From a virus, in IMG/VR virus record IMGVR_UViG_3300050010_000077, positions 1 to 21,659 of that record: 21,659 bases of DNA; one strand, written 5' to 3'. Positions 1 to 15,775 of the stretch are shown here, one piece after another. The notes under the pieces are model-generated. The model did no database searches. It was not told the origin of the DNA and saw nothing but the letters and a program-made list of their open reading frames with translations. The translations under genes were made by a program, and so were the position numbers. Positions within the stretch are counted from its first letter, which is position 1; each line of letters opens with the position of its first letter.

Positions 1-948
1 TGGTTCATTAGTGTTAAACCCGGCATCTTTTGGTGTGTATCTCATCTCCACCGTCCAACTCCCCGGAGTGAAAATGCCAGCCGTGGGGATGATCATGGTT
101 TCGGAGGAGCGGGTAGCACCACCAGTGATCCAGGATGTGGCGTAGGCTTTCTGCTCGACCTGCCATCCATCGAAATACCAATTGCCGTTGGCCTGTGGCT
201 CCGCTCTGAGAGAGATATATGCCGTCGTCGTCGCCGTGACTATGGTAGCTTCGGCGTATTGAAACGCCCCGTTCCCTGTCAATGACACCAACTGCCCCGA
301 GTCAGATACCACTCCGCCTGCGGCGTTCCACTGGAGTACCCTGAGATACCAGCTAGCGCCAGAAGGTGCCTGAACGTGCTGGGACACCGTATAGCTGGTG
401 TTGGGTAAAACGGGCACTTCGTCCCATTCTCCGCTAACGCCCATTCCGCTAACATAGCAATCTCCTGAAACATACCCAGTAATGACGTCCTCCAGGGATG
501 TTCCTCCTGCCCAGGACACCGTAGATGATATGCTGAGCGTATGGGTTACGCCTGCCCCGCCGCCTTCCCACCCCGTAGTGCTTGCCGGGTGCGACTGATT
601 AGCCGTTAAAAGGTTAGTAGTGCCTTCCTCGATCAGCAGCCCATAGAGGAAATCATTTGTGTCGATCTGCTCATACCGGGGGATATGCGTCCCTACCTGC
701 ACGCCCTCTAGGGTATAGGCAGTAGATGGCCGACTGAACCCCGCGATCTGCGAACCCAGGATCTCCGTATTGGCCACCCCGGAGAGATTGATCGCCGGAG
801 CCACGGAATTGTTGCAATAGCCCTGAGTGGCCTGAAGCCCCGCCACAATAGCCGCGAAGTTTTGCTGCAAGGCAGAGAGCAATTGCGCCTGATTGAAGTT
901 AGACGTTATGGTTACAGGAAGCTGGGTCGGCGTGATCACATTGCCCAT
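1..948 (-). CDS. Phage tail fibre / receptor-binding protein, N-terminal part, cut by the left edge
   Basis: An open frame of 316 codons starts at an ATG at 948 and runs off the left edge without a stop. The N-terminal ~100 residues are probably a virion-attachment segment with a predicted helical start (QLLSALQQNFAAIVAGLQ). A segment reading YGLLIEEGTTNLL follows, and then a beta-rich domain ending near position 105 in WQVEQKAYATSWITGGATRS. These two signatures recur in phage tail and LamG/ConA-like proteins, where they flank a carbohydrate-binding jelly roll. The last residues (WTVEMRYTP) look like the start of a further LamG-type domain. The gene begins 5 nt after the stop of the hub-like gene, so it is co-transcribed with it. 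The role in host-surface binding is inferred from these motifs and from its position at the end of the neck genes. Confidence 0.75.
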   Translation of the reverse strand, partial: MGNVITPTQLPVTITSNFNQAQLLSALQQNFAAIVAGLQATQGYCNNSVAPAINLSGVANTEILGSQIAGFSRPSTAYTLEGVQVGTHIPRYEQIDTNDFLYGLLIEEGTTNLLTANQSHPASTTGWEGGGAGVTHTLSISSTVSWAGGTSLEDVITGYVSGDCYVSGMGVSGEWDEVPVLPNTSYTVSQHVQAPSGASWYLRVLQWNAAGGVVSDSGQLVSLTGNGAFQYAEATIVTATTTAYISLRAEPQANGNWYFDGWQVEQKAYATSWITGGATRSSETMIIPTAGIFTPGSWTVEMRYTPKDAGFNTNEP

Positions 949-953
949 ACTGG

Positions 954-2399
954 TTACGCTCCCTTTGCCTTTGTCTGCGGTGTGCCACCCTTGGTAGCAA
1001 TATCGAGAACCAAATTCCTCACTTCGTATGGGCCAAGGTAGGTATGTGAAATCTTGGCCTGCAATTGATGGAATCTATAAGTGCCGTAAACCCTGAAAAC
1101 TTCATGCAGGCTGTCAGTTAATTCCGTGTCCACCGTCGCCTGAGTATAAGAGCCGGAATCCTCTGTAGCCACAAACAGATCCGCCCTGGTGGTCCATCCC
1201 GGCGTGTCGGCTATCGAAGCCTTGCCCAGCATCTTGTAGGTGCCGATGTTCTTGTCTACGGTCTGCGGTATCCAGAAAGCCGAGATCGCATTGCCGAAGT
1301 CGCTCGAACCGGTGTCCAATTGGTTCACGTAGCCATTCGGATCTCCGGCAAAGAACTCCAAACCGGAGCCGGTGTTATATCTCAAGAACTGCTGAGCGTT
1401 GATCCCGTTCAGAATGAAGAACTTGCCCCCTGTCGCTCCTGTGGTCGGGGGGATATAGAGCACCACGGCATTATTCGTGGTGGATGATCCTGTCGGCAGA
1501 GCGAACCAGATCCAGTTTCGCCATACCCCGCAAGCCGCTTTGGTGATCGCCGCTGCATTGACGTTGTTCCTGAACCAGTTGGGGATGCGGTCATAGCTGA
1601 TGCTTCCGGTGTCCACCCCGTCAAAATAGTACAGGCCATCATCGGCCACGAACCATATCAATTCATTGAACACGCACGCGGCCTGTGCCCCTACGCAGCC
1701 AATACCCTGCATGTAGTCAACCATGCTATAGTCTTCGATGGATGCCCCTTTTAAGACGTGGATGGAATAGCGTTTAAACACCACCAAGTCATTGAGGAAC
1801 GGTACTAGGGCGGTAATCACATCGCCGTCGCCCTGCCATACCTGCCAGTAGTATTGCAAGTCAGTGAAGTTGGCCGGGTAGAACGGGGCAGACCAGAGCA
1901 ATTCGGATGATGTCGTGCTGCTGCTTGGCGCACCGACAACAAAGAGACAATCAGCGAAGAAGGTAGGGAACTGGCCGCCAACGGGTGCCCCTGTCAACGC
2001 CGTGGCCGAACCCGTTCCGGTATATGATGCAGGCGTGTTCACTCCATCCGAGAAGACTACCTGGTTGATCAGGGTGCAGAAGTTGATCTGCGCTGTCGTG
2101 CTGAGGCCAGAGTAAATAGATGACCAGGCCGATCCTGTCCAGACATAAACACTACCGTTTGCCGCGGCTAGAATCTGCCTCACTCCACCGATATAGCAGG
2201 CATAAAGCCCTTGGATGGGGCCGGGCAGAGCGGTTGCGTTGAGATGCACCTGGCCGTTTCTCTTGTCCAGGGCACCCACTTGCCAGCCGATGAAGTTAGA
2301 GCAGGCTTGTGCAGAATTGACCGGGATCTTGGAGTCGAGCGTCCGGTCAATTAAGCCCTCTGAGAAGTCGTCTATGGTTAGTGGCATGTACGCGGGCAA
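954..2399 (-). CDS. Tail hub / stopper-like protein (P22 gp10-type, probable)
   Basis: This is a 481-aa protein made of short repeated beta motifs. It has many W/Y/G-rich strands, such as YACYIGGVRQILAAANGSVY and IWFVADDGLYYFDG, in a beta-propeller-like or beta-barrel-like pattern. No catalytic motif is seen. P22 gp10, the tail hub below the adaptor ring, is of similar length (472 aa) and holds the same position after the gp4-type adaptor, so I infer a tail-hub or stopper role at the portal vertex. The start is uncertain. The TTG at 2399 has a purine-rich AGAGG about 8 nt upstream. The ATG four codons later (2387, MPLTIDDFSEG) has no good ribosome site but gives a typical N-terminus. The gene follows the 50-aa basic gene by 2 nt. 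Confidence 0.7.
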   Translation of the reverse strand: MPAYMPLTIDDFSEGLIDRTLDSKIPVNSAQACSNFIGWQVGALDKRNGQVHLNATALPGPIQGLYACYIGGVRQILAAANGSVYVWTGSAWSSIYSGLSTTAQINFCTLINQVVFSDGVNTPASYTGTGSATALTGAPVGGQFPTFFADCLFVVGAPSSSTTSSELLWSAPFYPANFTDLQYYWQVWQGDGDVITALVPFLNDLVVFKRYSIHVLKGASIEDYSMVDYMQGIGCVGAQAACVFNELIWFVADDGLYYFDGVDTGSISYDRIPNWFRNNVNAAAITKAACGVWRNWIWFALPTGSSTTNNAVVLYIPPTTGATGGKFFILNGINAQQFLRYNTGSGLEFFAGDPNGYVNQLDTGSSDFGNAISAFWIPQTVDKNIGTYKMLGKASIADTPGWTTRADLFVATEDSGSYTQATVDTELTDSLHEVFRVYGTYRFHQLQAKISHTYLGPYEVRNLVLDIATKGGTPQTKAKGA

Positions 2400-2555: not shown

Positions 2556-2732
2556 TCAGTTTCCCCACCCGTTCTTGATCTTCATTTTGGGCATTTGGGT
2601 TGCCAGGGTGCTCTTAGCCTTCATCACACTGTCCGGTACGCCCGGATACCTGGCATCGCTCGATGTTGCCTTTTCCATCTTGCCGGTCTTGGGGTTGACC
2701 GGTGGCTGTTTGTTGAATCCACCGTTAGGCAT
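2556..2732 (-). CDS. Tiny basic protein (58 aa), unknown function
   Basis: ATG at 2732 to TGA at 2556-2558. A strong AGGAGG lies 7 nt upstream, inside the end of the preceding gene. The protein (MPNGGFNKQPPVNPKTGKME...) is rich in Lys, Pro, Asn and Gly, with a net charge of about +7, and has no membrane segment or signal peptide. A short predicted helix (PDSVMKAKSTLATQ) precedes a basic C-terminus (MPKMKIKNGWGN). It is packed between two other small basic genes in the neck region, so a minor virion or assembly role is possible. No family is recognised. Confidence 0.7.
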   Translation of the reverse strand: MPNGGFNKQPPVNPKTGKMEKATSSDARYPGVPDSVMKAKSTLATQMPKMKIKNGWGN

Positions 2733-2733
2733 T

Positions 2734-2871
2734 CTATAACCTCCTGTCCTTGTTGTTCTTGCCCCAACTGGCCGGAGCAGACTGAATCGCTATCTGCGGC
2801 TTACCTGCCTTGACCGATCCCGGAGTGGGGGCATGGGCTTTGGTTTTGACGGGCGGGTCCATTTTGGCCAT
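2734..2871 (-). CDS. Tiny basic Pro/Lys-rich protein (45 aa)
   Basis: ATG at 2871 to TAG at 2734-2736, with an AGGAG about 11 nt upstream. The sequence (MAKMDPPVKTKAHAPTPGSV...) is Pro/Lys/Ala-rich and likely disordered, with a net charge of about +7. The gene lies 17 nt after the stop of the neck-adaptor gene. Its end carries the ribosome site of the next gene, consistent with a coupled operon. An earlier in-register ATG, directly after the AGGAG, would give a different frame and has no usable spacing. Function unknown. Confidence 0.6.
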   Translation of the reverse strand: MAKMDPPVKTKAHAPTPGSVKAGKPQIAIQSAPASWGKNNKDRRL

Positions 2872-2888
2872 TCAGAAAACATCTCCTC

Positions 2889-4040
2889 TCACCTGAAGCT
2901 GCTGACCTTTATCTGCCTATTAAATCTTTTTTGCATCTGATCTAATGCAAGTTGAACTTTTCCACGAAACTCACTGTAGCGTTGAGAAGTGTCTTTGTCG
3001 TTCGGGAAGTCTGCAGAAGCGAATCTGTATGCAAGATAGTACGGAAGTGCATTGGCGATCAGGGGATGGCAGGGCAACGGATCTGTCCCTGTCATGCTGC
3101 TCACTATCGGTGGCAACTGGTAATATCGGACAGTGTAGAGCGATCCGCCGTAGTCGAACCACATGAAGGCACTGTCGCACTCGTAATCATAGAAGTCGTC
3201 ACCGTTGCTGTCATAAACCGCATATACCCGAAGGAAGTCGGCAGGTACAGCGTAGGCCACGTTGTACTGAGCCGTGGGAATCGTCCAGTTGTTGAACAGG
3301 CAGGCGTCAGCCATAAGCTCCACCTGCATACAGTCGTTGATCCAGGGGATCACGTCCGAGTAGTTGAGCGTCTTTCGGATCAGGTTGTTGGATGCATAGT
3401 TTGCTACATCGGCCACGGTGTTGAAATAGCCTGCTGTCTGGTAAGTGAACTGGTCAGCAGAGCTTGTGGTGCTGGTGCCGTAGGGAGACACAACGGTTAC
3501 GTCTACCTGCCCGGCTGTCAATGCCGGAGGTGCGACCGCATATATCTGCGTCCCGGTCTGATTGATCGTGAAGCCCGATCCCCACGGATACCCGGTGCCA
3601 CCCGGTACGGTATTCGCAGCCTGCGAACTGCCCGAGGTTGCCCCGGAAAAGACCGGCACGGTACCAAAGTAGACGACAGTAGTGTTCTGGAAGTTGTACC
3701 CGTTAATGGTCACGTTCTGGCCGCCTGCCGTGATACCCCTGGCCGGGGATACGCTGGTCACCACCGGCACGCCTGAATAGGTGAACTGATCCCCGGCATT
3801 GATTGAACTGGACCCGCCGGATGTGGTCACGATCACGTTGTAGACACCGGGCGTCGGGTTGGGCGGTGTGATGCAGACAATAGACGTGCTGCTGATCACA
3901 TTGACGCCAAGGGCAGCCACCCCATTAATGGCTACAGTTGTTGCCCCCACAACAAAGCCGGTGCCGGTGATAGTGATTGGCGTGCCTCCCATGAGAGGAC
4001 CGCTATTCGGGCTAACGGCAGATACAGTCGGCGCAGCCAC
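2889..4040 (-). CDS. Head-tail neck adaptor-like protein with two N-terminal IPT/TIG Ig-like domains
   Basis: A 383-aa protein that starts with GTG at 4040, 8 nt after a GGGAGG. Residues ~4-89 and ~91-200 are two Ig-like IPT/TIG domains, with the family hallmarks PTVSAVSPNSGPLMGGTPIT and VTSVSPARGITAGGQNVTI and matching DQFTY endings. Residues ~205-383 form a mixed helical domain (ADVANYASNNLIRKTLNYSD, DVIPWINDCMQ, a final helix ALDQMQKRFNRQIK) of about 180 aa. Its size and its position before a hub-like gene resemble P22 gp4-type adaptors that extend the portal ring. The Ig domains would then be displayed around the neck. The TIG call is firm; the adaptor call is inference from size, predicted helices and gene order. 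Confidence 0.7.
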   Translation of the reverse strand: MAAPTVSAVSPNSGPLMGGTPITITGTGFVVGATTVAINGVAALGVNVISSTSIVCITPPNPTPGVYNVIVTTSGGSSSINAGDQFTYSGVPVVTSVSPARGITAGGQNVTINGYNFQNTTVVYFGTVPVFSGATSGSSQAANTVPGGTGYPWGSGFTINQTGTQIYAVAPPALTAGQVDVTVVSPYGTSTTSSADQFTYQTAGYFNTVADVANYASNNLIRKTLNYSDVIPWINDCMQVELMADACLFNNWTIPTAQYNVAYAVPADFLRVYAVYDSNGDDFYDYECDSAFMWFDYGGSLYTVRYYQLPPIVSSMTGTDPLPCHPLIANALPYYLAYRFASADFPNDKDTSQRYSEFRGKVQLALDQMQKRFNRQIKVSSFR

Positions 4041-4442
4041 TTATAAAACCTCCCAGGCGGTCTTGGCAAACTCCTTCTGATGTTCTCTCGCCAGGTTGTC
4101 ATTGCGGGTTTCAAATGCTCGCTGCATACTGGCCTCATGCCTGCGGTTAAACTCGTCTATCTCAGCAAATGCCTCTGCGCTGCGCTCCACGCAGTTTTCC
4201 CTGGCTTTATCCAGCACTCGGCTATCGAGGTCTTTCCAGGGCACTATCCAGGCGTAGGTATGGGGATAGTGGGCGGTGGAATGGCATTCCCAGTTTGGCC
4301 CTAGATCGTTTCTCGCTATGAACAGAGTCGGATCTATTTCCCTGATCCGATTGCAGATGTCATGGACATCGGAGAAGACCGGGATCAACCAGGGCTTGCT
4401 GGTAAGTCTACTTAACACTTCATTCGTGAAATTGGAGTCCAT
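4041..4442 (-). CDS. Conserved-looking phage protein of unknown function (133 aa)
   Basis: I place the start at the ATG at 4442 (MDSNFTNEVLSRL), which has an AGGAGG 6 nt upstream. An ATG at 4466 with a weaker AAGGA also keeps the frame. The first ~80 residues look globular (WLIPVFSDVHDICNRIREID). The last ~50 are a charged helix with coiled-coil character (ENCVERSAEAFAEIDEFNRR, ETRNDNLAREHQKEF). Its TAA stop abuts the GTG of the TIG-adaptor gene, and the adaptor's ribosome site lies inside its last codons, so the two are translated together. It may be a neck or tail assembly partner, but no family is recognised. Confidence 0.7.
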   Translation of the reverse strand: MDSNFTNEVLSRLTSKPWLIPVFSDVHDICNRIREIDPTLFIARNDLGPNWECHSTAHYPHTYAWIVPWKDLDSRVLDKARENCVERSAEAFAEIDEFNRRHEASMQRAFETRNDNLAREHQKEFAKTAWEVL

Positions 4443-4490
4443 TCGTAGCCTCCTGCTGTTGAACATTAGCCCTTCCTTTAGTTCAATAAG

Positions 4491-6098
4491 CTATTGCCCG
4501 AACACCCATTTGTTTGTAGTGCCCAAACTGCCGTTGTAAGTTGATCCGGACGATCCTTTATTCGTGCAGGCCGTCCCTGTCCCCTCGTCCATCAAGTATA
4601 TTTCCGTAGCTGTCAAGGGTATATCGCCCATTGTCAACTGCGCCATCTGTGCGGCTGTCAGGTTGGCGTTGCCTATTGACACGTTTGATATAACGCCCAC
4701 CAAGCCCGTAGCGGCTGGAGGAACATCGTTGCCGATATATAATGTTCCAGCAGTAGGCATACCGTTTGTACTTGCATTTGTAATGGCGGGAGCATTGTTG
4801 ATAATCATGCCCATTGTCGTGCCTGTCCAATAGACGATGACATCGTACCAGACACCAGGAATCCAATAGGCCAATCCAGTACCAGATTGAACCTCTACAT
4901 AGGTTGAATTATTCATCTCGAAATGTAGCTGTCCGTCACCGTTCATCAAATATACGTGAATATATTTTCCACCGCTGGACTTAGACAGCAGAAACTGGGT
5001 AGCACTGCTGCTCTGAAAGGCAACATCTAGCCTAAATCGAAGGTGCATCCAGAAAGCAGTATCTGAACTTTCAGCCGCCCCACAAGCCATGATAGAATTG
5101 GCGGTGCCATCGAAGTGAGAACCTAAGCACCGGGTGTAGCCGACAGAGTTTAATCCTGCCATACCCGACCATGCAACTGATGTTCCCAGGTTGTTGCCCA
5201 GCGTCGGGAAAACGCCCTGCGCTGTATTACCATACGCTCCCGCGATCTGTTGAAATTCAGGTGCGCCGCCGCTGCCACTATTGGTCAAGTTCCAGTCCCA
5301 GGGGAAGAAGCCATTTATGGAGTTGTTGCAGCACTGGAAACCGCTGAACACAACGCCTGACGTAGTACTGCCTATCGGCTGGAACTGTAGGCTGCCGATG
5401 TTGTTACCCACTATCTGAGCATTTCCATTGGCAACAAATTGTACCATCGCCCCCGTTCCGCCAGTGAGGCAGGCGATGCTTTCAAAGCTGTTGCCGTTTA
5501 TCCACGCATCGTATGAAGTAGCGACAGTAGTTGAAACTAAAACTGGGGAAGCAAACCCGTTGATGGAAATACTACCGAAATTGCACATCTGAATATAGGA
5601 CTGAGTGGTTCCGGTGTTTGTTGCGTTGATCTGCAAGCCATACCCGGTATAGGCCGTAGAATTTGTCCAAGTTAAAACTATATCGTCGTAAATGTTATGG
5701 ACGCCGTTGAAGTTGACGTTCGTGCCACCAACTGTCAAAGCCGTGCCGGAGAACGAGTTACAGACTGCTATAGTAACGCCTATCAGTTTGCCGCCAGTTG
5801 AGACTGTAACACCGCCGCCTGGAGTGGTGATGTTGATAGTCGTAGCACCAGAACCCAGCCCTTTGACGATACAGTTAGAAATAGCCCAACTGGTCAGATT
5901 CACCGCACCGCTAAGAATTTGCAACAGGCCACCTACTGCTACGGTTGCTGCTGTGCCCAACATTGTCTGATCGTTGACCCCGGTGAGGATGTAGTCTGCC
6001 CCGGCCTTCTCTGATGCGCTAGATGTACTGGTGGCAACCGTGATAGTCGCTCCCCTAGTTCTTGCTAATGCTAAACTTCTCGCTACATTATCCGGCAT
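4491..6098 (-). CDS. Beta-helix plus LamG/ConA-like virion surface protein
   Basis: A 535-aa protein. Residues ~35-270 show regularly spaced short strands rich in N, G, T and S (ISNCIVKGLG, MCNFGSISING, GNNIGSLQF), the pattern of a right-handed beta-helix like those of phage tailspikes. Residues ~340-490 form a LamG/concanavalin-like jelly roll (AFWMHLRFRLD, LLSKSSGGKYIHVYL, WYDVIVYWTGTTMGMIIN, LYIGND, GVISNVSIG). A short tail reading YLMDEGTGTA ends the protein, as often seen after such lectin domains. No clear catalytic residues can be assigned. The ATG at 6098 immediately follows the stop of the upstream gene. Carbohydrate binding at the virion surface is inferred. The position between coat and neck genes is unusual for a tailspike. 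Confidence 0.65.
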   Translation of the reverse strand: MPDNVARSLALARTRGATITVATSTSSASEKAGADYILTGVNDQTMLGTAATVAVGGLLQILSGAVNLTSWAISNCIVKGLGSGATTINITTPGGGVTVSTGGKLIGVTIAVCNSFSGTALTVGGTNVNFNGVHNIYDDIVLTWTNSTAYTGYGLQINATNTGTTQSYIQMCNFGSISINGFASPVLVSTTVATSYDAWINGNSFESIACLTGGTGAMVQFVANGNAQIVGNNIGSLQFQPIGSTTSGVVFSGFQCCNNSINGFFPWDWNLTNSGSGGAPEFQQIAGAYGNTAQGVFPTLGNNLGTSVAWSGMAGLNSVGYTRCLGSHFDGTANSIMACGAAESSDTAFWMHLRFRLDVAFQSSSATQFLLSKSSGGKYIHVYLMNGDGQLHFEMNNSTYVEVQSGTGLAYWIPGVWYDVIVYWTGTTMGMIINNAPAITNASTNGMPTAGTLYIGNDVPPAATGLVGVISNVSIGNANLTAAQMAQLTMGDIPLTATEIYLMDEGTGTACTNKGSSGSTYNGSLGTTNKWVFGQ

Positions 6099-7670
6099 CT
6101 AACTCACCCCCAATGTTCCGGTCGAGGATACTGATGTACCGGTAATAGCTGCAACCTGCTGTACGAAGGACCAGCCGGGGCGCGGATTGCCCTGCCATTT
6201 CTGCCCGGTTCCTATAGTGTCTACAGCTCCATTCACTGTCCCGATTTTAAGAGGAGCAGCAAGATCAGTACCACTGGCAGCTGCTTTAATGCTGAGCCTA
6301 GCCAGCAAACCCTGCTGACCTGTGGTGGTGGTGTAGACTGTTGTGTAAGCAAACGACAAATCAGAGTAGACTGTTCGTATCGCTGCTTGCACCGCTGCGG
6401 CGATTAATGCGCCACTGGTGAGGCCGGAAACGCTCGCTAAGCTGATGCTATGATAGGTTCCTGTCAGAACATCTCCGTAAGCTGCGATCTGGAATGACAC
6501 CGGAGCGGCCAGGGCGTGAATATCCGTTGATGGTGAAGAAGCTCCTACGTCAGTCGCAGCGGTAGGTACTGCGCTGGTGCTGTTGGCTAAGGCTAACGCT
6601 CCACCAGAGACAGAGGAGCATTGTAAAGGGCAAGCGGCATTACTGACAGGATCGACCTCGAAGAAGTTCATCGTCAGACCTGTCAGACCAACCCCTGAAA
6701 TATCGAAGTCTACTTGATCGTAGTTGCCCATAGCGACCTCTGGCCCAAACCCCGTGGCCGTCTGAGCGTTGAGAAAGGTCTGCGTCGCCGATGACTTGCC
6801 GGATACCTGACTGACCACGTTTGGCACATTTACTACCTGCACGTCTTGTGTGCCCCGGCTCGACATCGCGTAGGCTAAGAGGAAATAGCTCGCCTGGGCG
6901 ATAGCCCCGTTGGTAAATACGAAGCGAGTATATTGTTTGCCTGATGTGGAGGTATTCGGGATTATAGCAGTCACACCTGCGGAAACGTTTATTGTCTGCA
7001 CATGCGACCAAGCAACGTTATCGTCAGACTCGTCCATGTAGAAGGTGCCTGCCTGATCAGCGTGAGCGGACGCCCGAAAATAGTATGGCGTAGGATTGGA
7101 ACGCAGCCTGTCTATGGTTGGCGACGTGTAGGACGCATTAGCTCCTAGAAGCGCCCCAAGGCTATTTACGGTATCAACCAGCAAGTGTATGTTATCTGGC
7201 GTGTTGCCCATAAAACCGATATAGTTAGTCCCGGCAGAGAGCGCGACATCAGTAATCCCCGAAAGCATTTCAGGCTCCTGCATGTAAAGCGCCAGCCTTG
7301 CGTCAATGGGCGCTGGGTTTGCCTGTTGACCGTTGGCATATATATTGCCGCCTTGCTGTGTAGCGCCATTGACGATCTGCACTTGGAAATAACGCATGGT
7401 TGGATTTATCCAACCGCTATCCAAAAGCTGGCCGGCCGTATTCGCTTCTGAATATAGGCTAGTCCATGTGCTGTTATCGTTGCTTTCGAGAATGTTCAAA
7501 GTCAGGCCATATATGGCGAAAATAAGCACCCGTATGGCATCATTGATCTGGTTATTGTTCATCTTGAACATCGGACTCTGGCTGGTTGGCTGCGCGCTGT
7601 TCGGCCAGGTGGCACCCGCAGCCAGTACCGGGACATTGAGCGGAACGATAATTGAATTGGGCCCCTGCAT
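6099..7670 (-). CDS. Large beta-rich virion structural protein with repeated domain
   Basis: A 523-aa protein with an ATG at 7670 and a GGGAG 8 nt upstream. Two internal repeats are visible. Residues ~56-103 (LNILESNDNSTWTSLY ... MRYFQVQIVNGA) and ~207-255 (AGTFYMDESDDNVAWSHVQT ... QYTRFVFTNGA) share the order strand, E/D-S-x-D-N-x-x-W, then YFR/YTR-type strands, so a beta-sandwich domain is duplicated. The C-terminal half is Ala/Thr/Ser/Gly-rich. There is no signal peptide or enzyme motif. Its place between coat and neck genes, beside two lectin-like proteins, suggests a head-decoration or fibre component. That role is inferred. Confidence 0.65.
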   Translation of the reverse strand: MQGPNSIIVPLNVPVLAAGATWPNSAQPTSQSPMFKMNNNQINDAIRVLIFAIYGLTLNILESNDNSTWTSLYSEANTAGQLLDSGWINPTMRYFQVQIVNGATQQGGNIYANGQQANPAPIDARLALYMQEPEMLSGITDVALSAGTNYIGFMGNTPDNIHLLVDTVNSLGALLGANASYTSPTIDRLRSNPTPYYFRASAHADQAGTFYMDESDDNVAWSHVQTINVSAGVTAIIPNTSTSGKQYTRFVFTNGAIAQASYFLLAYAMSSRGTQDVQVVNVPNVVSQVSGKSSATQTFLNAQTATGFGPEVAMGNYDQVDFDISGVGLTGLTMNFFEVDPVSNAACPLQCSSVSGGALALANSTSAVPTAATDVGASSPSTDIHALAAPVSFQIAAYGDVLTGTYHSISLASVSGLTSGALIAAAVQAAIRTVYSDLSFAYTTVYTTTTGQQGLLARLSIKAAASGTDLAAPLKIGTVNGAVDTIGTGQKWQGNPRPGWSFVQQVAAITGTSVSSTGTLGVS

Positions 7671-7696
7671 CTGATCAACTCCCTTTAGAGAGTAAA

Positions 7697-7718
7697 GCGG
7701 GGACGATTAAGCCCCCGC
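7697..7718 (-). other. GC-rich stem-loop between two surface-protein genes
   Basis: A six-base perfect stem (GCGGGG/CCCCGC) with a 10-nt loop lies in the 54-nt gap between the 269-aa and 523-aa genes. On the minus strand it is followed by TTTACTCTC, too weak a U-tract for a confident terminator. It could reduce readthrough, protect the upstream mRNA from 3' decay, or mark a processing site. Confidence 0.45.
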
Positions 7719-7724
7719 CCGTCT

Positions 7725-8534
7725 TTATCTGTTCTGCGAGAACTGAGCATAATCAATGGTCATGGTATTTGCCTGCGCTGCGGCCTTGTTGTCCACATAG
7801 AAGTAGGGGATCAATGTGGTCAACGGCGACTGTATCAACTGCGTTGAAGGCAGAAGTCCAGGGGGCACCTGGATGTCGTTGATCCAGACGTTCATCCCGG
7901 CAGTGGTTGCGCCGGTTGCTTGCGGCAGAATCTCGATCCTGATCTTGACGTAGGTAGCCGCCGCCATCGTAACTGCTCCCGGATACCCAGTAAGCGGCGT
8001 CGCAACTTCGCTGCCACCGTTGTTGTTGGTGGAGAGGTAGAGGCCGGTGGTGGACAGGGCGGTGTCGTATTTGACATATGCCCAGTTGCTTGCAGAGGCG
8101 TAAAACCCCATTCTTGCGGTCAGGTTGGCAGTGACGTTGTTCACCTGTAGCAGCGCCTCAAAGGTGGGATTCTTGACCATGCTGAAAGCCGCCTGCGTGA
8201 ATTGCAGGGTGCTGGTGCTGGACGCGGTGACAGTACTCGCCAGTACCATCGTTCCGTTCGGGGCCGCGGTGACGGTCTGAGTGCCGTTGGTGCCGCCGCC
8301 TGTCCACATGGCTTTTGCGATCACGGTGGATGCCAGGACAGCCGGGTTTTCAAGAAAGTCCTCGTAGAAAGTCATGCCTTGAAGCTTGATCTCCTCAAGT
8401 TCAACTGTACCGCAGTTCCGCAACCACACACCAGGACCGAGGCCGGACTGACCGATCTGGGAAGAGTCGGAAGCAGAACCCCTTAGAAACGGGGTAAATG
8501 AGGGGTCTATGGTGGCTATATCTACACCTTTCAC
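7725..8534 (-). CDS. Lectin-like jelly-roll protein, probable head decoration or head fibre
   Basis: A 269-aa protein that starts with GTG at 8534, 7 nt after a strong AAGGAGG. The first ~60 residues form a small N-terminal segment (GLGPGVWLRNCGTVELEEIK). Residues ~65-269 show the strand pattern of a concanavalin/LamG-like jelly roll (TFEALLQVNNVTANLTARMG, NWAYVKYDTALSTTGLYLS, TYVKIRIEILPQ, GMNVWINDIQVPP, TMTIDYAQFSQ). It is the first gene after the major capsid gene, a common place for decoration proteins, and a highly stable hairpin separates the two. Attachment to the capsid and sugar binding are inferred; no specific family is claimed. Confidence 0.65.
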   Translation of the reverse strand: MKGVDIATIDPSFTPFLRGSASDSSQIGQSGLGPGVWLRNCGTVELEEIKLQGMTFYEDFLENPAVLASTVIAKAMWTGGGTNGTQTVTAAPNGTMVLASTVTASSTSTLQFTQAAFSMVKNPTFEALLQVNNVTANLTARMGFYASASNWAYVKYDTALSTTGLYLSTNNNGGSEVATPLTGYPGAVTMAAATYVKIRIEILPQATGATTAGMNVWINDIQVPPGLLPSTQLIQSPLTTLIPYFYVDNKAAAQANTMTIDYAQFSQNR

Positions 8535-8559
8535 GGATATACCTCCTTATAAGTTTTCC

Positions 8560-8589
8560 CCTGGCGACCCCCCGAAGGGAGCCACCAGG
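8560..8589 (-). other. Very stable stem-loop with UUCG tetraloop just downstream of the coat gene
   Basis: On the minus strand these 30 nt fold into a 13-bp stem (three G-U pairs, no mismatch) closed by C(UUCG)G, an exceptionally stable RNA tetraloop. It begins about 15 nt after the coat stop codon. No U-run follows (GGGAAAACTT), so it does not look like a normal intrinsic terminator. A 3' stabiliser or processing site for abundant coat mRNA is the likelier role. Confidence 0.7.
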
Positions 8590-8604
8590 AGGAGGAACGC
8601 TATT

Positions 8605-9864
8605 TTAGTGCTCTACGATGCCTTGCAACCAGACCTGAGCCCTGGGCTTCTGGCATCCAATGTCACAATACTTAACCATCGTGGCCTCGTATGCAGGTAT
8701 GTTGGCAACACGGCTCAGGATCGCCCCGTCCTCATCCATCCACGTCCAATCCTCCAACTCATAAACTTTGAAGTCGTCCGTGTCGAGCAGGAACATGGAG
8801 CCGGTCGGACAATACTGATCAGCCGTGATCGGGAGGGACTTTTCTCCGCCCTGGTATTCGAGAGCCTTCCAGCCACCCTTCAGTTCCAAGGTGTTGATCT
8901 GCCTCTTCTGGGACTGAAGCATGTACTGGTAGGCACGCCGGACGCCGAAGCTGGTCACGATGAACTTGATATGGCCGGCTGCAAACATACGGGAGTTGTC
9001 GATGCCAGCCTGAATCACAACCTCGGAAATTTCTCCGTTGACCGCTGTGGGCACCTGAGCATTGAACCAGTAGTTGCTTGAACGGTTGATGTTGTACAGG
9101 GTGGTGTTGTTGTTGAAGATAGCGCCCAGGCCGGTGATCTCGCCGTTCAGGGTGGTACCGGAAGCCACGTTCTGTACGACGATGTAGTCAGTGCTGACCA
9201 TACCAATCGAGGCGCAGGTGACGTTCCAGGTAACGGTTGATGTAGCGTTGTTCACCGCGGTGATCTGGATCGGGGTGCCGGGTGTGTTGCGCTGAGTAGT
9301 CGGGTAGGAGCCTGCCGCCCACACATCGCAGAGCATACCTTCAGCCAGGACGTTGATCCCGCCAATGGAGTAGTTGGTAAACGGGGTGTACTGGTTGATG
9401 GTTGTGGTCGAACCGGAAGCGACGTTGACTACAGCGAGGACGCCGGAGCCATCCCAGAATACAGAGCGGGCGACGTTTTCTTTGGCGTCGTCCTGACAGT
9501 CCTGGAGTTCCTGCTTAAACATATTGGCGAAGGCGCCCACGTTGGAGCGGGAAGCTTTGAGCAGTTTGTCAGACAACTGAATCCGGGCGTACAGGTTCTT
9601 GGTCTGCCAGTTGGCTTGCGCGGTCTGGCGGCTGTTGGTGACAGGCAGGGACGAAATATCGGAGCCGGATCCATAGCCACCGTTACGACCGTACCGGAGG
9701 GCCATGGTGATCGAGCTACCGACGACGCCTTCCTTGCCGCGCTCGAACTGTGCGAACACGACGCTTGCTCCGATGTTTAGCTGGTACCGGAGCGAGGGGA
9801 GGAAAAAAGTCTTGAGGGCGTTGGCTGCGCTAGTTAAACCGGTTACGTTAGGGTTGCTCGGCAT
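8605..9864 (-). CDS. Major capsid protein (HK97-fold, P22 coat-like class, probable)
   Basis: A 419-aa protein with an ATG at 9864 and an AAGGAG 10 nt upstream. The N-terminus (LRYQLNIGASVVFAQFERGK) is followed by a Gly/Tyr-rich stretch (RYGRNGGYGSGSD) and a long helical segment (SDKLLKASRSNVGAFANMFK, QELQDCQDDAKENVARSVFW), which fits the backbone helix of an HK97-type coat. A Thr/Asn-rich beta section in the middle may be an inserted domain. The end (EDWTWMDEDGAILSRV) resembles coat C-termini. The identity rests mainly on size, gene order directly after the scaffold-like gene, and this overall pattern. The scaffold gene lies 58 nt upstream. Confidence 0.8.
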   Translation of the reverse strand: MPSNPNVTGLTSAANALKTFFLPSLRYQLNIGASVVFAQFERGKEGVVGSSITMALRYGRNGGYGSGSDISSLPVTNSRQTAQANWQTKNLYARIQLSDKLLKASRSNVGAFANMFKQELQDCQDDAKENVARSVFWDGSGVLAVVNVASGSTTTINQYTPFTNYSIGGINVLAEGMLCDVWAAGSYPTTQRNTPGTPIQITAVNNATSTVTWNVTCASIGMVSTDYIVVQNVASGTTLNGEITGLGAIFNNNTTLYNINRSSNYWFNAQVPTAVNGEISEVVIQAGIDNSRMFAAGHIKFIVTSFGVRRAYQYMLQSQKRQINTLELKGGWKALEYQGGEKSLPITADQYCPTGSMFLLDTDDFKVYELEDWTWMDEDGAILSRVANIPAYEATMVKYCDIGCQKPRAQVWLQGIVEH

Positions 9865-9922
9865 TTATCATTCACTCCTTGATCGTTTTTTTTGTTAAGT
9901 TTACTTGCCACGCCGGGCAAGC

Positions 9923-10975
9923 CTAAAACCAGTCTCCGAACTGACCGGACGCCTTCATCGCTTTTAGCGAATCATTCAGATCGTGCATTTCGTTTCCCGA
10001 TACCATCGGTGGGCGACCACCTCCTGACATTGCACCCATCACAGGCAGGGGCTGACCGTTTCTGATCGCTTGCAGGTTTTCGGCCAGTATCTCTTCCTGG
10101 AGTGCCTGCTTGAGTGCGCCTTTGATTGTCGGATCGGCCATCAGTGTTGCTAAGTCTGTAGTCTTAACCGGTGCAGGAGCGGTGGCAGTAGTCATGGCAT
10201 TTTTGGCCTGGGTGCGGGAATGGATGATCTCGTAGGCAGATACCAGAGCGCCTTCAGGATCGACTTCTACCATGCGCCGGAGGGCCGGGCTTTCTTTGAG
10301 CAGCAGATCGGTGATCTCCTGGGCGTGGGATTCAATCTCCGGGGCGCCATATTTGTCCTTCAAGATGTTGTAGCCGCGGGCCAGTGAATCATTCCTTACC
10401 TGCTGAAGTTGCTGTACCTGCTGTTGTCTTACCTGATTTGCAGCATAGATGATCTCGTCTTTCTTGTTGGCTTGCCAGAGATTGATCTTGGCTAGAGCAT
10501 TGGCCTCTGCTTTAGCGTCGAAGTCCTCTCTTGCCTTGACGAACTCATTTTGCAACTCTTCGGGAATCTCTAATACTTTCGAGAAATCTAGCGCCGGTGG
10601 CGGTGCCTGAGGTGCCGCTTGTTGGGTCGGCGTTCCCTGGGGCTGCGCTTGCGGCTGTCTCATTGCCTGTACCTGTTCTGCCAAAAGCCGTACTGCTTCT
10701 GTCAACTGAGCCTGCGTCTGCATGACAGCTTCCAGAGGTTGCGGTGCTGCGGCCGGTTGCTGCGTCGGTTCCTGCGTCTGGGGTGCGATTGGTTCCTGCG
10801 TAGATACCTGTACGGGTGGAATATCTGTCGGCAACGTAGCCGGTTCAGTCGTTACTGGTGGCGTTTCTACGGATGATGGCTCAGGGGGCGTATCGTCCCC
10901 TAGCCCCTGATCGGTGAAGAAGGTTGCTAACTGTTCACTGGTGGGTTGTTCTATTGCCTCAAATTCTCCTGACAT
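9923..10975 (-). CDS. Capsid scaffolding protein (probable)
   Basis: A 350-aa protein with an ATG at 10975 and an AGGAGG 7 nt upstream that overlaps the portal stop. Residues ~28-130 are Pro/Thr/Gln-rich low-complexity sequence broken by a helix (AVMQTQAQLTEAVRLLAEQV). Residues ~140-260 are strongly helical and coiled-coil-like (ELQNEFVKAREDFDAKAEAN, QVRQQQVQQLQQVRNDSLAR). The C-terminus is short and ends in LKAMKASGQFGDWF. Extended helical, acidic-then-basic proteins between portal and coat genes are the usual scaffolds of P22-like and HK97-like phages, which co-assemble with coat into the procapsid and then exit. No protease motif is seen, so release rather than proteolysis is likelier. Confidence 0.75.
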   Translation of the reverse strand: MSGEFEAIEQPTSEQLATFFTDQGLGDDTPPEPSSVETPPVTTEPATLPTDIPPVQVSTQEPIAPQTQEPTQQPAAAPQPLEAVMQTQAQLTEAVRLLAEQVQAMRQPQAQPQGTPTQQAAPQAPPPALDFSKVLEIPEELQNEFVKAREDFDAKAEANALAKINLWQANKKDEIIYAANQVRQQQVQQLQQVRNDSLARGYNILKDKYGAPEIESHAQEITDLLLKESPALRRMVEVDPEGALVSAYEIIHSRTQAKNAMTTATAPAPVKTTDLATLMADPTIKGALKQALQEEILAENLQAIRNGQPLPVMGAMSGGGRPPMVSGNEMHDLNDSLKAMKASGQFGDWF

Positions 10976-10987
10976 TTACGTTCCTCC

Positions 10988-13255
10988 TCATTGCGCCGCC
11001 GCTTGTGGCGGGGCTGCTGATATTTGTGGCGGGCCTCCTGGCGAGGGTGCCGCTTGTGGTTGTCCCGGTGGTGTTGGCGCACCAGGTTGTGCCTGCGCCT
11101 GACCGTGCATCTTCTGGAGATGCATCAAGGTGTGCATTTTGAATATCTGATCCAGCGTGCCCCCTGCTGCCTGGTTCATCTGATCGTATTCATCTGTCAG
11201 GCGGTAGTTATTGTGGTGGGTGACATGGAGAACATCATCGTCCACGTCCGAGACTTGTACCATCTGCCCCTGATCCATGATGCGGTTTTCCTTCTCCGCC
11301 CGGCTGATCTGCCGGGAGTCCACGGCATCTGATAATTCCCAATGCCCGAACTGCATCAGATCAAGCACCTTGGCGCGCCCGTCCTTGGTGAGTTTGCCGG
11401 TGTCCGGATCATTGAACAGGCCGCTCTGCATCATATCAAACACCATTGCCCGGCGCTGGGCAGGAGTCTCCGCAAGCATGGCCGATGTCTCAATGATTAC
11501 GTCATCTGAGCGCACATCTCTGTTGTCCCACTGCATCATCTCAAGCTCCATGTCGGCGCCAATGGTTCTAACCATCCTCTTCTGGGTGGCGAACTGGCGA
11601 TAGAGCCGGATCACCTGTTTACTTATGTCCACCAGCCCCATCTCGTAGTTGCCTACCGTATGGGACAGGCGGGTATCATCCTGTTCAATGGCGATGGCGA
11701 GGGCTACTCCAGACTTGATCCCGGGAGGAGCTTCGCTGTTCCTGGCGATCTCCGATACCCCGGATATATAAGTAAACTCATTCAGAAGGGCACTCTCTTC
11801 CTCGCGGAACTCTGGGGGAAGGCCGGGAGTCTCCATGAAATGCGGATCAGCAAAGCCCTTTTTCTTGATCCAGATCGCCCCGGGGGAACCGGCGTTATTA
11901 GCTGCCCAATCGGCGTCAACGCTGTTCTCCTCGATAATTACCTGGCCGATGGCGACCCGGTTGAGATGCTCGGCTTTACGGTTTCTCACGGCATTGTAAC
12001 GGCGCTGTACCGGGACGATCCGCTCGATGATGGACCTGCCCCAGAAGCAACCCGGCCTTCGTATACAATCGAACTTGGTGATGCCGATGTCTGCTTTGTC
12101 ATCCGGCCCCACTCGGTAGGGCAGCGCCCCGACGTGCAAGAGCTTGTGGCCGGCAACGACGATCAGGCGTCCGTCAGGATAGGCCGAAGTTGGCTTCTCG
12201 TATTCCTCTTTCAGGACGGCATAGCCATCTATCTTGCTGACTGTCTGGTTGAAGTTATAGAACCCATAGCCCAGACCGGCCAAGCCAAGGGTAGTAGTCT
12301 GAATCTTGTAGGAGTCTACCGGCTCGGAGTCAACCTTGACCCCGTACATCTCATAGATTTCCTCCACCGGGTAGGCTCTGGCGTGCATGATTCTCCGGCA
12401 ATCATCTATCGTCGGGTGCCAGGGGGAATCGGGGAATATCTCATAGGGGGGGACTACCACAACGTCAATGTCGCCCTCGTATATCGGTTCGAGCGTACCG
12501 GCAACGATGCCGCCACCGTCCTGCTCGATATTGATATGTTGGCGCTCAAACTCTTCCGGGGTGGGATCGCCGGACATGTCATCATATATTTTCTTGCCCG
12601 CATTATCCAAACTCAGGCCAGTGCCATCACCCGTATTCAGAATGTCATCTACCTTATCGTCGTCTTTCTTCTTCTTGCGAGAGAGGCTGTCTGGGGCGGT
12701 AGCATCCTTGAACTCGCCTTTAATAGACATCATGCCGACTTTCGCTCCGAGCTTGCTATCCCAGATCGGCTTAAGAAATGCCGTGCCACAACCCTCCATC
12801 CACTGGAAGAGGGTGTTGCGGTCCTCCATGGTCAGGCGTTCATTCAGGAAATAATCGAGAAGACGGGTTTCCACTTTGGCGCCCGAGAGATCGTAGTCCT
12901 CAGACGTGGCCGGACGTACTTTCAGGATTGGTTGCATCCGTGATATGCGGGCTATGCGAGTTTCAATGATAGGAGCACAGTGGTTGAATACTTCCCGTTC
13001 TTGCCACCAGTAGAGCTTCGGTATCTCGAACAGATCCATGATGGCGGCATTTATATCCATGTACTGGTTGCCGTCAATGAAGGCCATGTTCAGGCGCCAC
13101 TGTAATTCAAAAGGCCGACGTTCGTTACGCCGGCGCTCAAATTCCTGGTCAACGTGGGAGACGAGATCGGTATCATAGCCGAAGTCTGTTGGCTTCGACC
13201 TGACAGCGATTCGTGATATTCCTCTTTTTACGGCAGAGAGCATGGATTCTTTCAT
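10988..13255 (-). CDS. Portal protein (P22-like, large)
   Basis: About 755 aa from the ATG at 13255 (MKESMLSAVKRG), with a GGAGG 4 nt upstream. A GTG at 13303 keeps the frame but would start in the loop of a terminator hairpin, so I reject it. The N-terminal half (ERRRNERRPFELQWRLNMAF, NQYMDI, WQEREVFNHCAPIIETRIAR, MQPILKVRPATSEDYD) and the central region (IERIVPVQRRYNAVRNRKAE, YISGVSEIARNSEAPPGIKS) fit large P22-type portals, the dodecameric DNA gate of the head. A charged insert (LSRKKKKDDDKVDD) interrupts the first half. The C-terminus is a Pro/Gln/Ala-rich tail of about 50 residues. The stop overlaps the scaffold ribosome site. Confidence 0.88.
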   Translation of the reverse strand: MKESMLSAVKRGISRIAVRSKPTDFGYDTDLVSHVDQEFERRRNERRPFELQWRLNMAFIDGNQYMDINAAIMDLFEIPKLYWWQEREVFNHCAPIIETRIARISRMQPILKVRPATSEDYDLSGAKVETRLLDYFLNERLTMEDRNTLFQWMEGCGTAFLKPIWDSKLGAKVGMMSIKGEFKDATAPDSLSRKKKKDDDKVDDILNTGDGTGLSLDNAGKKIYDDMSGDPTPEEFERQHINIEQDGGGIVAGTLEPIYEGDIDVVVVPPYEIFPDSPWHPTIDDCRRIMHARAYPVEEIYEMYGVKVDSEPVDSYKIQTTTLGLAGLGYGFYNFNQTVSKIDGYAVLKEEYEKPTSAYPDGRLIVVAGHKLLHVGALPYRVGPDDKADIGITKFDCIRRPGCFWGRSIIERIVPVQRRYNAVRNRKAEHLNRVAIGQVIIEENSVDADWAANNAGSPGAIWIKKKGFADPHFMETPGLPPEFREEESALLNEFTYISGVSEIARNSEAPPGIKSGVALAIAIEQDDTRLSHTVGNYEMGLVDISKQVIRLYRQFATQKRMVRTIGADMELEMMQWDNRDVRSDDVIIETSAMLAETPAQRRAMVFDMMQSGLFNDPDTGKLTKDGRAKVLDLMQFGHWELSDAVDSRQISRAEKENRIMDQGQMVQVSDVDDDVLHVTHHNNYRLTDEYDQMNQAAGGTLDQIFKMHTLMHLQKMHGQAQAQPGAPTPPGQPQAAPSPGGPPQISAAPPQAAAQ

Positions 13256-13276
13256 GGTGCCTCCGCTGGCCCAATT

Positions 13277-13331
13277 AAAAACGGGAAGTTCGCCAAGTAC
13301 CACTTATCAAGGTGTTGGCGAAACTTCCCGT
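13277..13331 (-). terminator. Strong intrinsic terminator directly upstream of the portal gene
   Basis: The arms 13281-13296 and 13315-13331 pair over 16 bp with one bulged base, separated by an 18-nt loop. On the minus strand the stem is followed by TTTTT at 13281-13277. It stops transcription running toward the portal gene, whose ATG is only 21 nt beyond the U-tract, leaving no room for a normal promoter between them. Portal expression therefore needs readthrough, attenuation control or antitermination. Confidence 0.8.
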
Positions 13332-13342
13332 CGGTTGTTCAT
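13307..13342 (-). other. Possible 11-codon leader ORF running into the terminator
   Basis: ATG at 13342 to TGA at 13307-13309, encoding MNNRREVSPTP. It covers the whole 5' arm of the terminator and ends in its loop, so a ribosome on it would block hairpin formation. The ribosome site is poor (CCGGACG), so translation is uncertain. Confidence 0.25.
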
Positions 13343-13374
13343 CGTCCGGGTTTTATGAAGTTACTTACAGCACA

Positions 13375-13404
13375 AGCATATTACGGCAAATCAGATATTG
13401 TCAA
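13375..13404 (-). promoter_or_regulatory. Candidate promoter for the portal/late operon leader
   Basis: A perfect TTGACA -35 box on the minus strand (13404-13399) lies at the end of the DUF2292-like gene. Possible -10 boxes are TAATAT (spacing 15) and TATGCT (spacing 18). Transcription would begin near 13368 and meet the terminator after a leader of about 90 nt. Confidence 0.4.
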
Positions 13405-13582
13405 GATTTATTTTTATTGGCTTCACACTTTCGGTCTTGATGATCCGAACTATGCCCCTGCCCTGGATCAGAATCTCCACCCTTCCCCATTCAAGAGAGC
13501 GCAGAGCATCAAGCGCCTGCTTCTCTTCGTCGCTGACGTTCAATAATATTCTCCTTACTGGGTCAATGCAACCATAGGGCAC
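13391..13582 (-). CDS. DUF2292/YezD-like small protein
   Basis: A 63-aa protein that starts with GTG at 13582, 5 nt after a GAGGTG. The core LDALRSLEWGRVEILIQGRG followed by IVRIIKTESVKPIK matches the pattern of the DUF2292 (B. subtilis YezD) family: a short helix (L..L.S...G.VEI.I..G) and then I..I...E. The biochemical role of that family is not established. The gene lies between the packaging genes and the portal, and its stop codon coincides with a TTGACA promoter element and precedes the terminator, so it closes the upstream transcription unit. This family is common in Firmicutes, a weak host clue. Confidence 0.7.
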   Translation of the reverse strand: MPYGCIDPVRRILLNVSDEEKQALDALRSLEWGRVEILIQGRGIVRIIKTESVKPIKINLDNI

Positions 13583-13591
13583 GGTATCACC

Positions 13592-13849
13592 TCACCTGCG
13601 ACCTGGAATGAATAGAGGGCTTCTCTCTTGCTGTTCCGGTTTAGGTTGAAAGTCTACGGTAGCCATCGGCATCAGGCCGTCATAGATGCAATCATCGACA
13701 TCCAAGGTGGTCGGATTGCCGTCCTTGTCGTAGACGAACAACCTGTTGACCCAATATATCTGGGCGCCTGTCTTTATGGAATGGCTCAACATGTCCATTA
13801 CAAGAAACTGCTCGCCAGTCTCTTTTACTTTGACCAGATGCGGGAACAT
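13592..13849 (-). CDS. Small phage protein of unknown function (~85 aa)
   Basis: The preferred start is the ATG at 13849 (MFPHLVKVKETGEQF), 9 nt after GAGGAG and 1 nt after the upstream stop. An ATG at 13858 is in frame but touches the ribosome site. The protein looks like a compact beta-rich domain (LVKVKETGEQFLVMDMLSH, AQIYWVNRLFVYDKDGNPTT) with a short charged tail. I do not recognise a family. It is tightly packed in the small-gene operon. Confidence 0.7.
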   Translation of the reverse strand: MFPHLVKVKETGEQFLVMDMLSHSIKTGAQIYWVNRLFVYDKDGNPTTLDVDDCIYDGLMPMATVDFQPKPEQQERSPLFIPGRR

Positions 13850-13850
13850 C

Positions 13851-14081
13851 TCATTCATCTCCTCCCATGCTCATGCTTCTTCTGATACTCTCACTGATTG
13901 GATTTCTGCCCTTTGGCGGGGCACTCTCCTGATTGCTGATGTAATCCGTCAGGGTCTCGGCCTTGATCAGGCGGTAGAGGTCTTTGCGCTCCTTGGCATG
14001 TTGGATTTCCAGGGCATAGACGATAGTAGCGAACAGACCAAGAAACAGCAAGGCGAATACGGCGCTGGCAATATCGGTCAT
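13851..14081 (-). CDS. Small single-pass membrane protein
   Basis: A 76-aa protein. Residues ~5-24 (ASAVFALLFLGLFATIVYAL) form one hydrophobic helix, followed by a charged, helical cytoplasmic-looking tail (IQHAKERKDLYRLIKAETLT) and a disordered end. Its ATG overlaps the TGA of the upstream gene (ATGA), so translation is coupled. Small N-terminally anchored proteins of this kind in phage late operons can be holin-like or spanin-like, but one helix and a long polar tail are not diagnostic. No lysin gene is in the window. Confidence 0.7.
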   Translation of the reverse strand: MTDIASAVFALLFLGLFATIVYALEIQHAKERKDLYRLIKAETLTDYISNQESAPPKGRNPISESIRRSMSMGGDE

Positions 14082-14278
14082 ACTACACCACGCTCCTCCA
14101 GGAGGTCTTGGATAACTTCACACCGGGCAACTGCCTCAGGTGTACTGCTGCCAGCGCTGTAGGCATCCTTGGCGAAGTTCCAAGCTTCCTTCAACTCTTC
14201 CATTGGCGTGCTTGCATAGATTCTTCTGAACCGGGCAAGGTGTTTCTGGTATGCAGAATCGTGATCAGTAATACTCAA
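14078..14278 (-). CDS. Small helical protein, paralogue of its upstream neighbour
   Basis: I place the start at the TTG at 14278, 10 nt after AAGGAG. A GTG at 14287 is possible but lies 1 nt from that site. The 66-aa product is all-helical. It shares a pattern with the upstream gene: ARFRRIY..., an A-x-x-FA-x-x-A helix (EAWNFAKDAYSAG), and RCEVIQDLLEERG at the end, against ARFKKVL, ALEFAETALANC and RAEVCREILKERD. This points to tandem duplication. Start and stop overlap both neighbours. Function unknown. Confidence 0.65.
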   Translation of the reverse strand: MSITDHDSAYQKHLARFRRIYASTPMEELKEAWNFAKDAYSAGSSTPEAVARCEVIQDLLEERGVV

Positions 14279-15163: not shown

Positions 15164-15277
15164 CTAAAGCTTGAAGTTGGGAGCCTTCGGCACTCGTGGT
15201 GTCTTAGGCTTTGGCATTTTCGGGCTTTTCACCCTTGGCTTGGGAACGGTTGGTTTCTTCGTCCGTAGTGTGGCCAT
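15164..15277 (-). CDS. Tiny Lys/Pro-rich polybasic protein (37 aa)
   Basis: ATG at 15277, two nt after the previous stop, to TAG at 15164. The protein contains 12 Lys/Arg and no acidic residue, and repeats P-K and K-P steps (KPRVKSPKMPKPKTPRVPK), so it should be extended and bind polyanions. No strong ribosome site is seen, so it probably depends on coupling with the upstream gene. It resembles eukaryotic-type basic linker tails only in composition. Function unknown. Confidence 0.5.
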   Translation of the reverse strand: MATLRTKKPTVPKPRVKSPKMPKPKTPRVPKAPNFKL

Positions 15278-15279
15278 GG

Positions 15280-15447
15280 TTAAAATCCCGGAATCAGAGC
15301 AGACTTCTTGGGGTTTCTGCTTGCAGGAGTAGATCCATGCGTGCTAGTGCCCTTCTTCGGGTGCTTTACCATCCCGATTGCTCCGGGGCTGGTGATGTTG
15401 GTCGGGCCGGGGATCTTGCCGCGCGCTTTCGTTTTCTTCTTTGCCAC
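15280..15447 (-). CDS. Tiny polybasic protein (55 aa)
   Basis: GTG at 15447 with a GAGAGGAG about 10 nt upstream, stop TAA at 15280-15282. The N-terminus is Lys/Arg-rich (VAKKKTKARGKIPGPTN), the rest Gly/Pro/Ser-rich with basic patches (VKHPKKGTSTHGS). It has 12 basic residues and no acidic ones. It is followed at once by another tiny basic gene. Binding to DNA or RNA is suggested by charge only. Confidence 0.55.
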   Translation of the reverse strand: MAKKKTKARGKIPGPTNITSPGAIGMVKHPKKGTSTHGSTPASRNPKKSALIPGF

Positions 15448-15502
15448 AGCGATGATGCTCCTCTCTGCTAGTTTTATAGGATGCCTTGCGGCTAATCCTC
15501 AG

Positions 15503-15775
15503 TTAAACACCCAATACCCTTCTGACATCTTCCCTCGCAACAAGGAACTTCTTATATGCCTCCTGCTGGGCTTCAGCCTGCGCCTTCCTCTGAACCATGA
15601 GCCGGTATTCGGGCAAGGTATCATGCAGAAGTTTGCCCCTGATCTCGACATGGCCTTTGATAGTGTTGAAACAGGACGGGCACATGCGGCCTTTCAAGTC
15701 GGCCATAATAATGCCATCGGCGAGGCCTTTGCTCTTACGGTTGCAGAGGGAGCAACGGTTGTGCCGAACCTTCAT
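15503..15775 (-). CDS. Zinc-ribbon-like protein (90 aa)
   Basis: I choose the ATG at 15775 (MKVRHNRCSLCNRK), 9 nt after AAGGAG; longer in-frame starts exist up to 15811 but are badly spaced. Two CxxC pairs (CSLC and CPSC), about 27 residues apart, form a probable four-Cys zinc ribbon. The C-terminal half is a long basic helix (YRLMVQRKAQAEAQQEAYKK). Its start overlaps the end of the 84-aa gene upstream by 41 nt. Zinc ribbons in this setting often bind nucleic acid or a protein partner; the specific role is unknown. Confidence 0.65.
   Translation of the reverse strand: MKVRHNRCSLCNRKSKGLADGIIMADLKGRMCPSCFNTIKGHVEIRGKLLHDTLPEYRLMVQRKAQAEAQQEAYKKFLVAREDVRRVLGV

Follow-up and report, generated by a model that had tools for sequence, protein, structure and literature searches.

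A recombining gene cassette with a XepA-type component beside the coat gene of a soil podovirus

Among the closest described systems is the capsid turret of HFTV1, an archaeal siphovirus. Its base, gp30, is a hexamer for which XepA is the sole structural match reported (DALI Z 8.1); the following gene encodes the turret head, gp31, a trimer that combines galactose-binding with deacetylase domains (PMC12494034). The two genes overlap, and the coat gene lies about 4.4 kb before them. XepA itself, from the Bacillus prophage PBSX (PDB 6i56), forms pentamers and is called a lytic-cassette protein; it is reported to have a cytotoxic effect on Bacillus and to be missing from mature PBSX particles, and its authors proposed docking on the capsid (PMC6834076). 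A literature search within one library, judged by its listings, turned up no description of such turrets in bacterial podoviruses.

Kuravirus SU10 gp10 and the phi29 head fibres resemble the locus described here in that a gene for a beta-rich decoration candidate comes right after the coat gene (in SU10 gp9, gp10 and the adaptor gp11). They differ from it in that an Ig-like fold is reported there, whereas no Ig-type decoration or head fibre family of the phi29/epsilon15 kind was among the Pfam, PHROG and NCBIfam matches of proteins A, B and C (see below), and SU10 gp10 is not seen in the capsid map. The Arthrobacter cluster AV podoviruses (Jasmine, Adat) have the same coat family (about 26% identity) and a spike and esterase cassette between coat and neck genes that is swapped between sister phages; a case in which a rhamnogalacturonan acetylesterase gene stands in for these two genes is already published (PMC5794937). 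In contrast to the present locus, no XepA-type domain was found in cluster AV, and the annotation there is tail spike.

The window is a 21.7 kb virus record from a soil phage, and its minus strand carries the structural genes of a podovirus in one block. The features are given below together with their conservation in related contigs, of which L003 and L004 are relatives and L005 is a near-identical twin.

20368-20880, minus strand: small terminase (PF03592)
16322-17758, minus strand: large terminase
10988-13303, minus strand: portal (PF16510)
9923-10975, minus strand: ORF in the scaffold position, without a match above cut-off
8605-9864, minus strand: major coat protein, upstream border of the insert (phrog_14242 major head protein, E 2.8e-55)
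7725-8534, minus strand: protein A, 269 aa, GTG start
6099-7670, minus strand: protein B, 523 aa, XepA-type; proposed base
7272-7670, minus strand: N-terminal module of B (residues 1-133), kept in L003 (82%) and L004 (56%)
7317-7547, minus strand: XepA-type domain 1 of B (aa 42-118), from profile and sequence matches
6861-7088, minus strand: XepA-type domain 2 of B (aa 195-270), from profile and sequence matches
4491-6098, minus strand: protein C, 535 aa; proposed exchangeable head
5280-5741, minus strand: tail-spike-type (beta-helix-like) stretch of C (aa 120-273), a weak match (phrog_3783, E 1.6e-5)
4647-5006, minus strand: LamG or concanavalin-type domain of C (aa 365-484; PF13385, E 4.2e-10)
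4371-7234, minus strand: stretch without nucleotide similarity to L003, with the C-terminal part of B, all of C, the gap before D and the first bases of D (flanks 81-93% identical)
4041-4466, minus strand: protein D, about 140 aa, conserved and neck-adjacent, downstream border
2889-4040, minus strand: adaptor with two N-terminal TIG domains (PF01833, E 3.9e-24) and a SU10_adaptor match (PF24175, E 6.4e-6)
954-2399, minus strand: nozzle, P22 gp10-like (phrog_3287, E 6.5e-18; phrog_578)
1-948, minus strand: tail spike or fibre, cut by the window end and separate from the A-B-C cassette

An earlier note on this DNA had placed three ORFs between the coat and neck genes, and they are confirmed at these coordinates on the minus strand. 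A, B and C each have an RBS-like sequence upstream, and the 25 bases 5' of the B start are nearly identical in three relatives. Because all three are present again in L005, and A and the start of B again in L003, they are real genes and not chance ORFs. The GC content per kb ranges from 0.47 to 0.56, and a tRNA search of the window found none. A gene for a TnpB-family RNA-guided nuclease (18129-19205, minus strand; NF040570, 171.9 bits against a cut-off of 100) sits between the small and large terminase genes.

Protein B was described earlier as a repeat-containing protein, which proved correct: it has two copies of one XepA-type domain. The NCBIfam XepA model NF047953 matches B with E 1.8e-20 and 73.2 bits, short of the curated equivalog cut-off of 400. 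Residues 173-279 match PBSX XepA in the PDB with E 1.3e-8, and the N-terminal module by itself does so with E 1.6e-5. An HMM of 27 XepA-type domains from other viruses, with the window relatives left out, gave 102 bits for B, 37 for L004 and 32 for L003, and the best of 1000 shuffled B sequences reached 9.3 bits. The type that is present twice in B is the N-terminal beta-sandwich of XepA; its C-terminal disc had no confident match in B (0.6 bits). B is also far longer than XepA, and its gene is located in the head/neck module, between coat and neck genes, not in a lysis cassette.

Protein A had been read as lectin-like, for which no library match was found: Pfam and NCBIfam gave zero matches and PHROG only phrog_14820, of unknown function (E 7.4e-4). 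The description of C as a LamG protein was right, and a weak spike-type match precedes the LamG domain. Pfam gave LamG only, with neither an N-terminal spike family nor a deacetylase domain. Searches of A and C against the PDB found nothing, and structure predictions of B (alignment of three rows) and A (two rows) had a pLDDT of 30 and were both discarded. The start of C (6098) directly adjoins the end of B (6099), with B first.

Comparison with the relatives shows where the cassette is exchanged. The coat protein is 97% identical in L003 and 87% in L004. Nucleotide similarity between the window and L003 extends over 8540-14131 (93%) and 7235-8364 (81%), breaks, and is found again over 2565-4370 (90%). 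In place of the C-terminal part of B and of C, L003 carries about 2.65 kb of other DNA with two other ORFs (11390-12223 and 12236-13129), neither of which was named by Pfam, PHROG or NCBIfam, and the second of which was without a PDB match. A TIM-barrel hydrolase assignment for the 297 aa protein of L003 came from reading alone, and the claim was dropped. Protein A is kept in L003 at 79% identity with a different start; L004 has an unrelated protein of 301 aa at its place, and A was not found there. The slot in L004 encodes a 1049 aa protein with LamG and rhamnosidase domains above the cut-offs and a PA14 match below. At 9154-10452, beside the rhamnosidase in the same slot, lie an ORF that looks by eye like a methyltransferase and a gene for a hexapeptide transferase (PF00132). 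Scans for closer relatives returned mostly the same three contigs. It is established that the coat gene has a real, modular cassette next to it that recombines and includes a XepA-type component, and that component, as recognised by sequence, is what is new.

Protein D, which closes the insert, is 88% identical in L003 and 84% in L004. In L089, L090 and L096 a look-alike of D, judged by eye, immediately precedes the XepA-type gene, and a profile comparison of D with a broader family of about 140 aa was weak (probability 30%).

The interval between coat and nozzle was also compared across coat lineages. A coat scan found 69 loci, and annotated phages and later loci were added. With HMMs from the coat and nozzle of the window, 80 coat loci were recognised, and in 69 of them a nozzle lies downstream. 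Clustering at 90% coat identity resulted in 45 lineages, of which the seven without a measurable gap were left out. The remaining 38 include L090 and L094, which were found via the XepA-type domain and not the coat, both with inserts. The gap is compact (at most 1.7 kb) in 21 lineages, typically in the order coat, protein of about 140 aa, adaptor of about 220 aa and nozzle, and expanded (at least 2.3 kb) in 16; one lineage is mixed, L020 being compact and L031 having a 552 aa GDPD protein. The insert had been called unusual, which holds only in part: it is an insertion relative to the compact P22-like order, but it is not rare in this coat lineage.

The coat-neck slot recurrently hosts adhesin or enzyme genes. 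Nine of the 20 slot proteins scanned reached the Pfam cut-off (one beta-helix, three GDSL esterases, three GDPD and two collagen), and the slot proteins of L012 and L055 and one of Shocker's had Pfam matches below the cut-off only. In cultured relatives the annotators labelled slot proteins tail spike and esterase (GDSL; Jasmine). The cluster AV spike, the esterase and the protein that replaces them have an N-terminal segment of about 35 residues in common (L010 10272-13703, L041 11353-12921), which is likely an anchor. No XepA-type domain was found among coat loci L012-L077, so that other cargo of the slot must have a different mount. In ctLwi270 (L008, MW202554.1) a concanavalin-type lectin and an endopolygalacturonase (as deposited) are encoded between portal and coat and not after the coat.

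A scan with the XepA-type domain only gave 21 loci, one being the twin of the window; the other 20 are on 19 contigs (L089 and L098 share one). Only selected neighbours were annotated, and L098, L103 and L107 are without a module assignment. Five of the 20 have a coat of the window family upstream, in the order portal, coat, XepA-type gene (L089, L090, L094, L096 and L097); L096 and L097 look like the same virus, with an identical XepA-type protein. Two further loci are in head modules with other coats, which brings the number in head modules to seven: L102, with another major head protein directly upstream of the XepA-type gene, and L108, with the portal before it and scaffold and major head protein after it. 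Tail modules contain the XepA-type gene in L099 (tape measure before, tail protein after), L100 and L101 (in L101 a spike-like protein is encoded two genes before) and L104, and the XepA-type protein of L090 has a weak match to the major tail protein family phrog_9522 (E 5.2e-5).

The partners of these genes are repeatedly glycan-active. The next gene encodes a polysaccharide deacetylase in L089 (PF01522, E 6.1e-26) and a protein with CBM_4_9 above the cut-off and LamG below it in L097; in L091 a GH16-type domain is fused to the XepA-type protein, and in L092 the partner is a poly-gamma-glutamate hydrolase. A genome scan with the XepA-type domain found two loci, one in Gordonibacillus kamchatkensis with a layout as in L094, a candidate phage region with genes for coat, XepA-type protein, adaptor and nozzle, and one in Novosphingobium without a coat match. 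When two XepA-type proteins were compared with cultured phages, Sphingomonas phage Scott was the sole find.

The favoured explanation, with a probability of about one half, is that A, B and C together make up a glycan-adhesion cassette of the virion, with B as the base and C as a swappable head, most likely a turret mounted on the capsid. Glycan adhesion by the virion through this cassette is likely. B would be a ring-forming base of XepA-type beta-sandwiches, anchored on the particle by its conserved N-terminal module. C, translated directly after B, would sit on this base as the outer head and touch sugars with its spike-like stretch and LamG domain, and C and the C-terminal part of B may be swapped as a unit when the phage changes the surface glycan that it binds. 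The likeliest mount would be the exterior of the capsid, with turrets as in HFTV1. Such a turret might let the particle attach reversibly to capsule, EPS or other matrix at first, with the separate tail spike (1-948) coming into play afterwards.

The parallel with HFTV1 lies in the base gene directly before the head gene, as B then C here, in the resemblance of the base to XepA, by sequence for B and by the reported DALI match for gp30, and in a head that binds glycans, as predicted for C, with the deacetylase gene of L089 in the corresponding place. Two separate pieces of the L089 deacetylase, whose sequence contains many N, match gp31 (single-pair E 6e-5 and 3e-5); the protein appears to be without the N-terminal part of gp31 because the alignment begins at about residue 36 of gp31. 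Turrets are favoured for B and C because the pattern of a base followed by a glycan-active head recurs (L089, L097, L091). On the other hand, B has no direct sequence match to gp30 (an hhalign profile comparison of its XepA-type domains gave a probability of 0.2% and rank 81 of 371 proteins), C has LamG and spike-like stretches and no deacetylase, and the placement on the capsid is here inferred. Further points against are the reported absence of XepA from mature PBSX particles, the XepA-type genes in tail modules, the weak tail protein match in L090, the lack of a XepA-type domain in coat loci L012-L077 and the apparently shortened L089 deacetylase. A search of cultured phages with the HFTV1 head protein returned HFTV1 alone. 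Since the turret genes of HFTV1 are so far from its coat gene, the mount cannot be read from gene position only. Indirect support for the capsid comes from the XepA-type domains of B, from the repeated presence of such domains in head modules and from the HFTV1 parallel.

A serious rival, possible though doubtful, is that the proteins are spikes mounted on the tail or neck, with B as a connector docking on the tail adaptor and C as a tailspike. In SU10 the adaptor gp11 is the docking site of the long tail fibres, whose genes, gp12 and gp13, come right after it (PMC9509320), and in L090 and L094 the XepA-type gene directly precedes the adaptor gene. C has a spike-type stretch, and the slot in cultured podoviruses is occupied by the predicted tail spike and GDSL esterase of Jasmine, which have their N-terminal segment in common with the replacing protein of a sister phage; an HHpred match of the spike to the HK620 spike has been reported (PMC5513430). 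However, a separate spike is already present after the nozzle, and in L005, where it is full-length (789 aa), it has LamG and a beta-helix. The earlier suggestion that the surface-type proteins of the insert come in addition to a tail spike is thereby borne out. The cassette of the window also precedes D and the adaptor, and in L108 the XepA-type gene is between the portal and scaffold genes.

The match of B to XepA, with its reported cytotoxicity and absence from mature particles, would also fit a function in lysis outside the virion, where B is an exported membrane-disturbing helper like PBSX XepA and C a secreted depolymerase. This is unlikely in that seven of the 20 other XepA-type loci are inside head modules, the kept N-terminus and swapped C-terminus of B resemble an anchored device, and B is far below the XepA equivalog cut-off (73 of 400 bits). 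Passenger (moron) insertions with no structural role are very improbable. The methyltransferase-like ORF and hexapeptide transferase in the L004 slot speak for such passengers, but the N-terminal module and start region of B are conserved across three phages and the slot proteins that reached the Pfam cut-off have surface or enzyme domains.

If the turret explanation is true, the order coat, XepA-type base and glycan-active head would be a genetic signature by which capsid-mounted, enzyme-bearing adhesion devices of bacterial viruses can be recognised. The explanation is also a concrete proposal for what XepA-type proteins do. More tentatively, and somewhat short of an even chance, bacterial podoviruses may have HFTV1-like turrets with a conserved XepA-type base, its gene next to that of the coat, and interchangeable glycan-active heads (LamG/spike, rhamnosidase, deacetylase, CBM). 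Capsid-borne adhesion would then evolve through the exchange of heads without involving the tail spike, and XepA-type proteins would be a turret-base family common to archaeal and bacterial tailed viruses. If the mount is the tail, the locus still marks a site of recombination at which podoviruses with coats of this lineage trade surface-binding modules.

The number of TIG domains in the tail adaptor varies, with two N-terminal domains in the window (2889-4040) and in L003 (13607-14758), the first of which is absent in L004 (10976-11824). In L003 an ORF on the opposite strand (15254-15838, minus strand), HNH homing endonuclease-like by eye, is found between adaptor and nozzle. The tail spike is mosaic too, because its central stretch (about aa 105-260) differs between the window (1-948) and its otherwise near-identical twin L005 (11781-14150).
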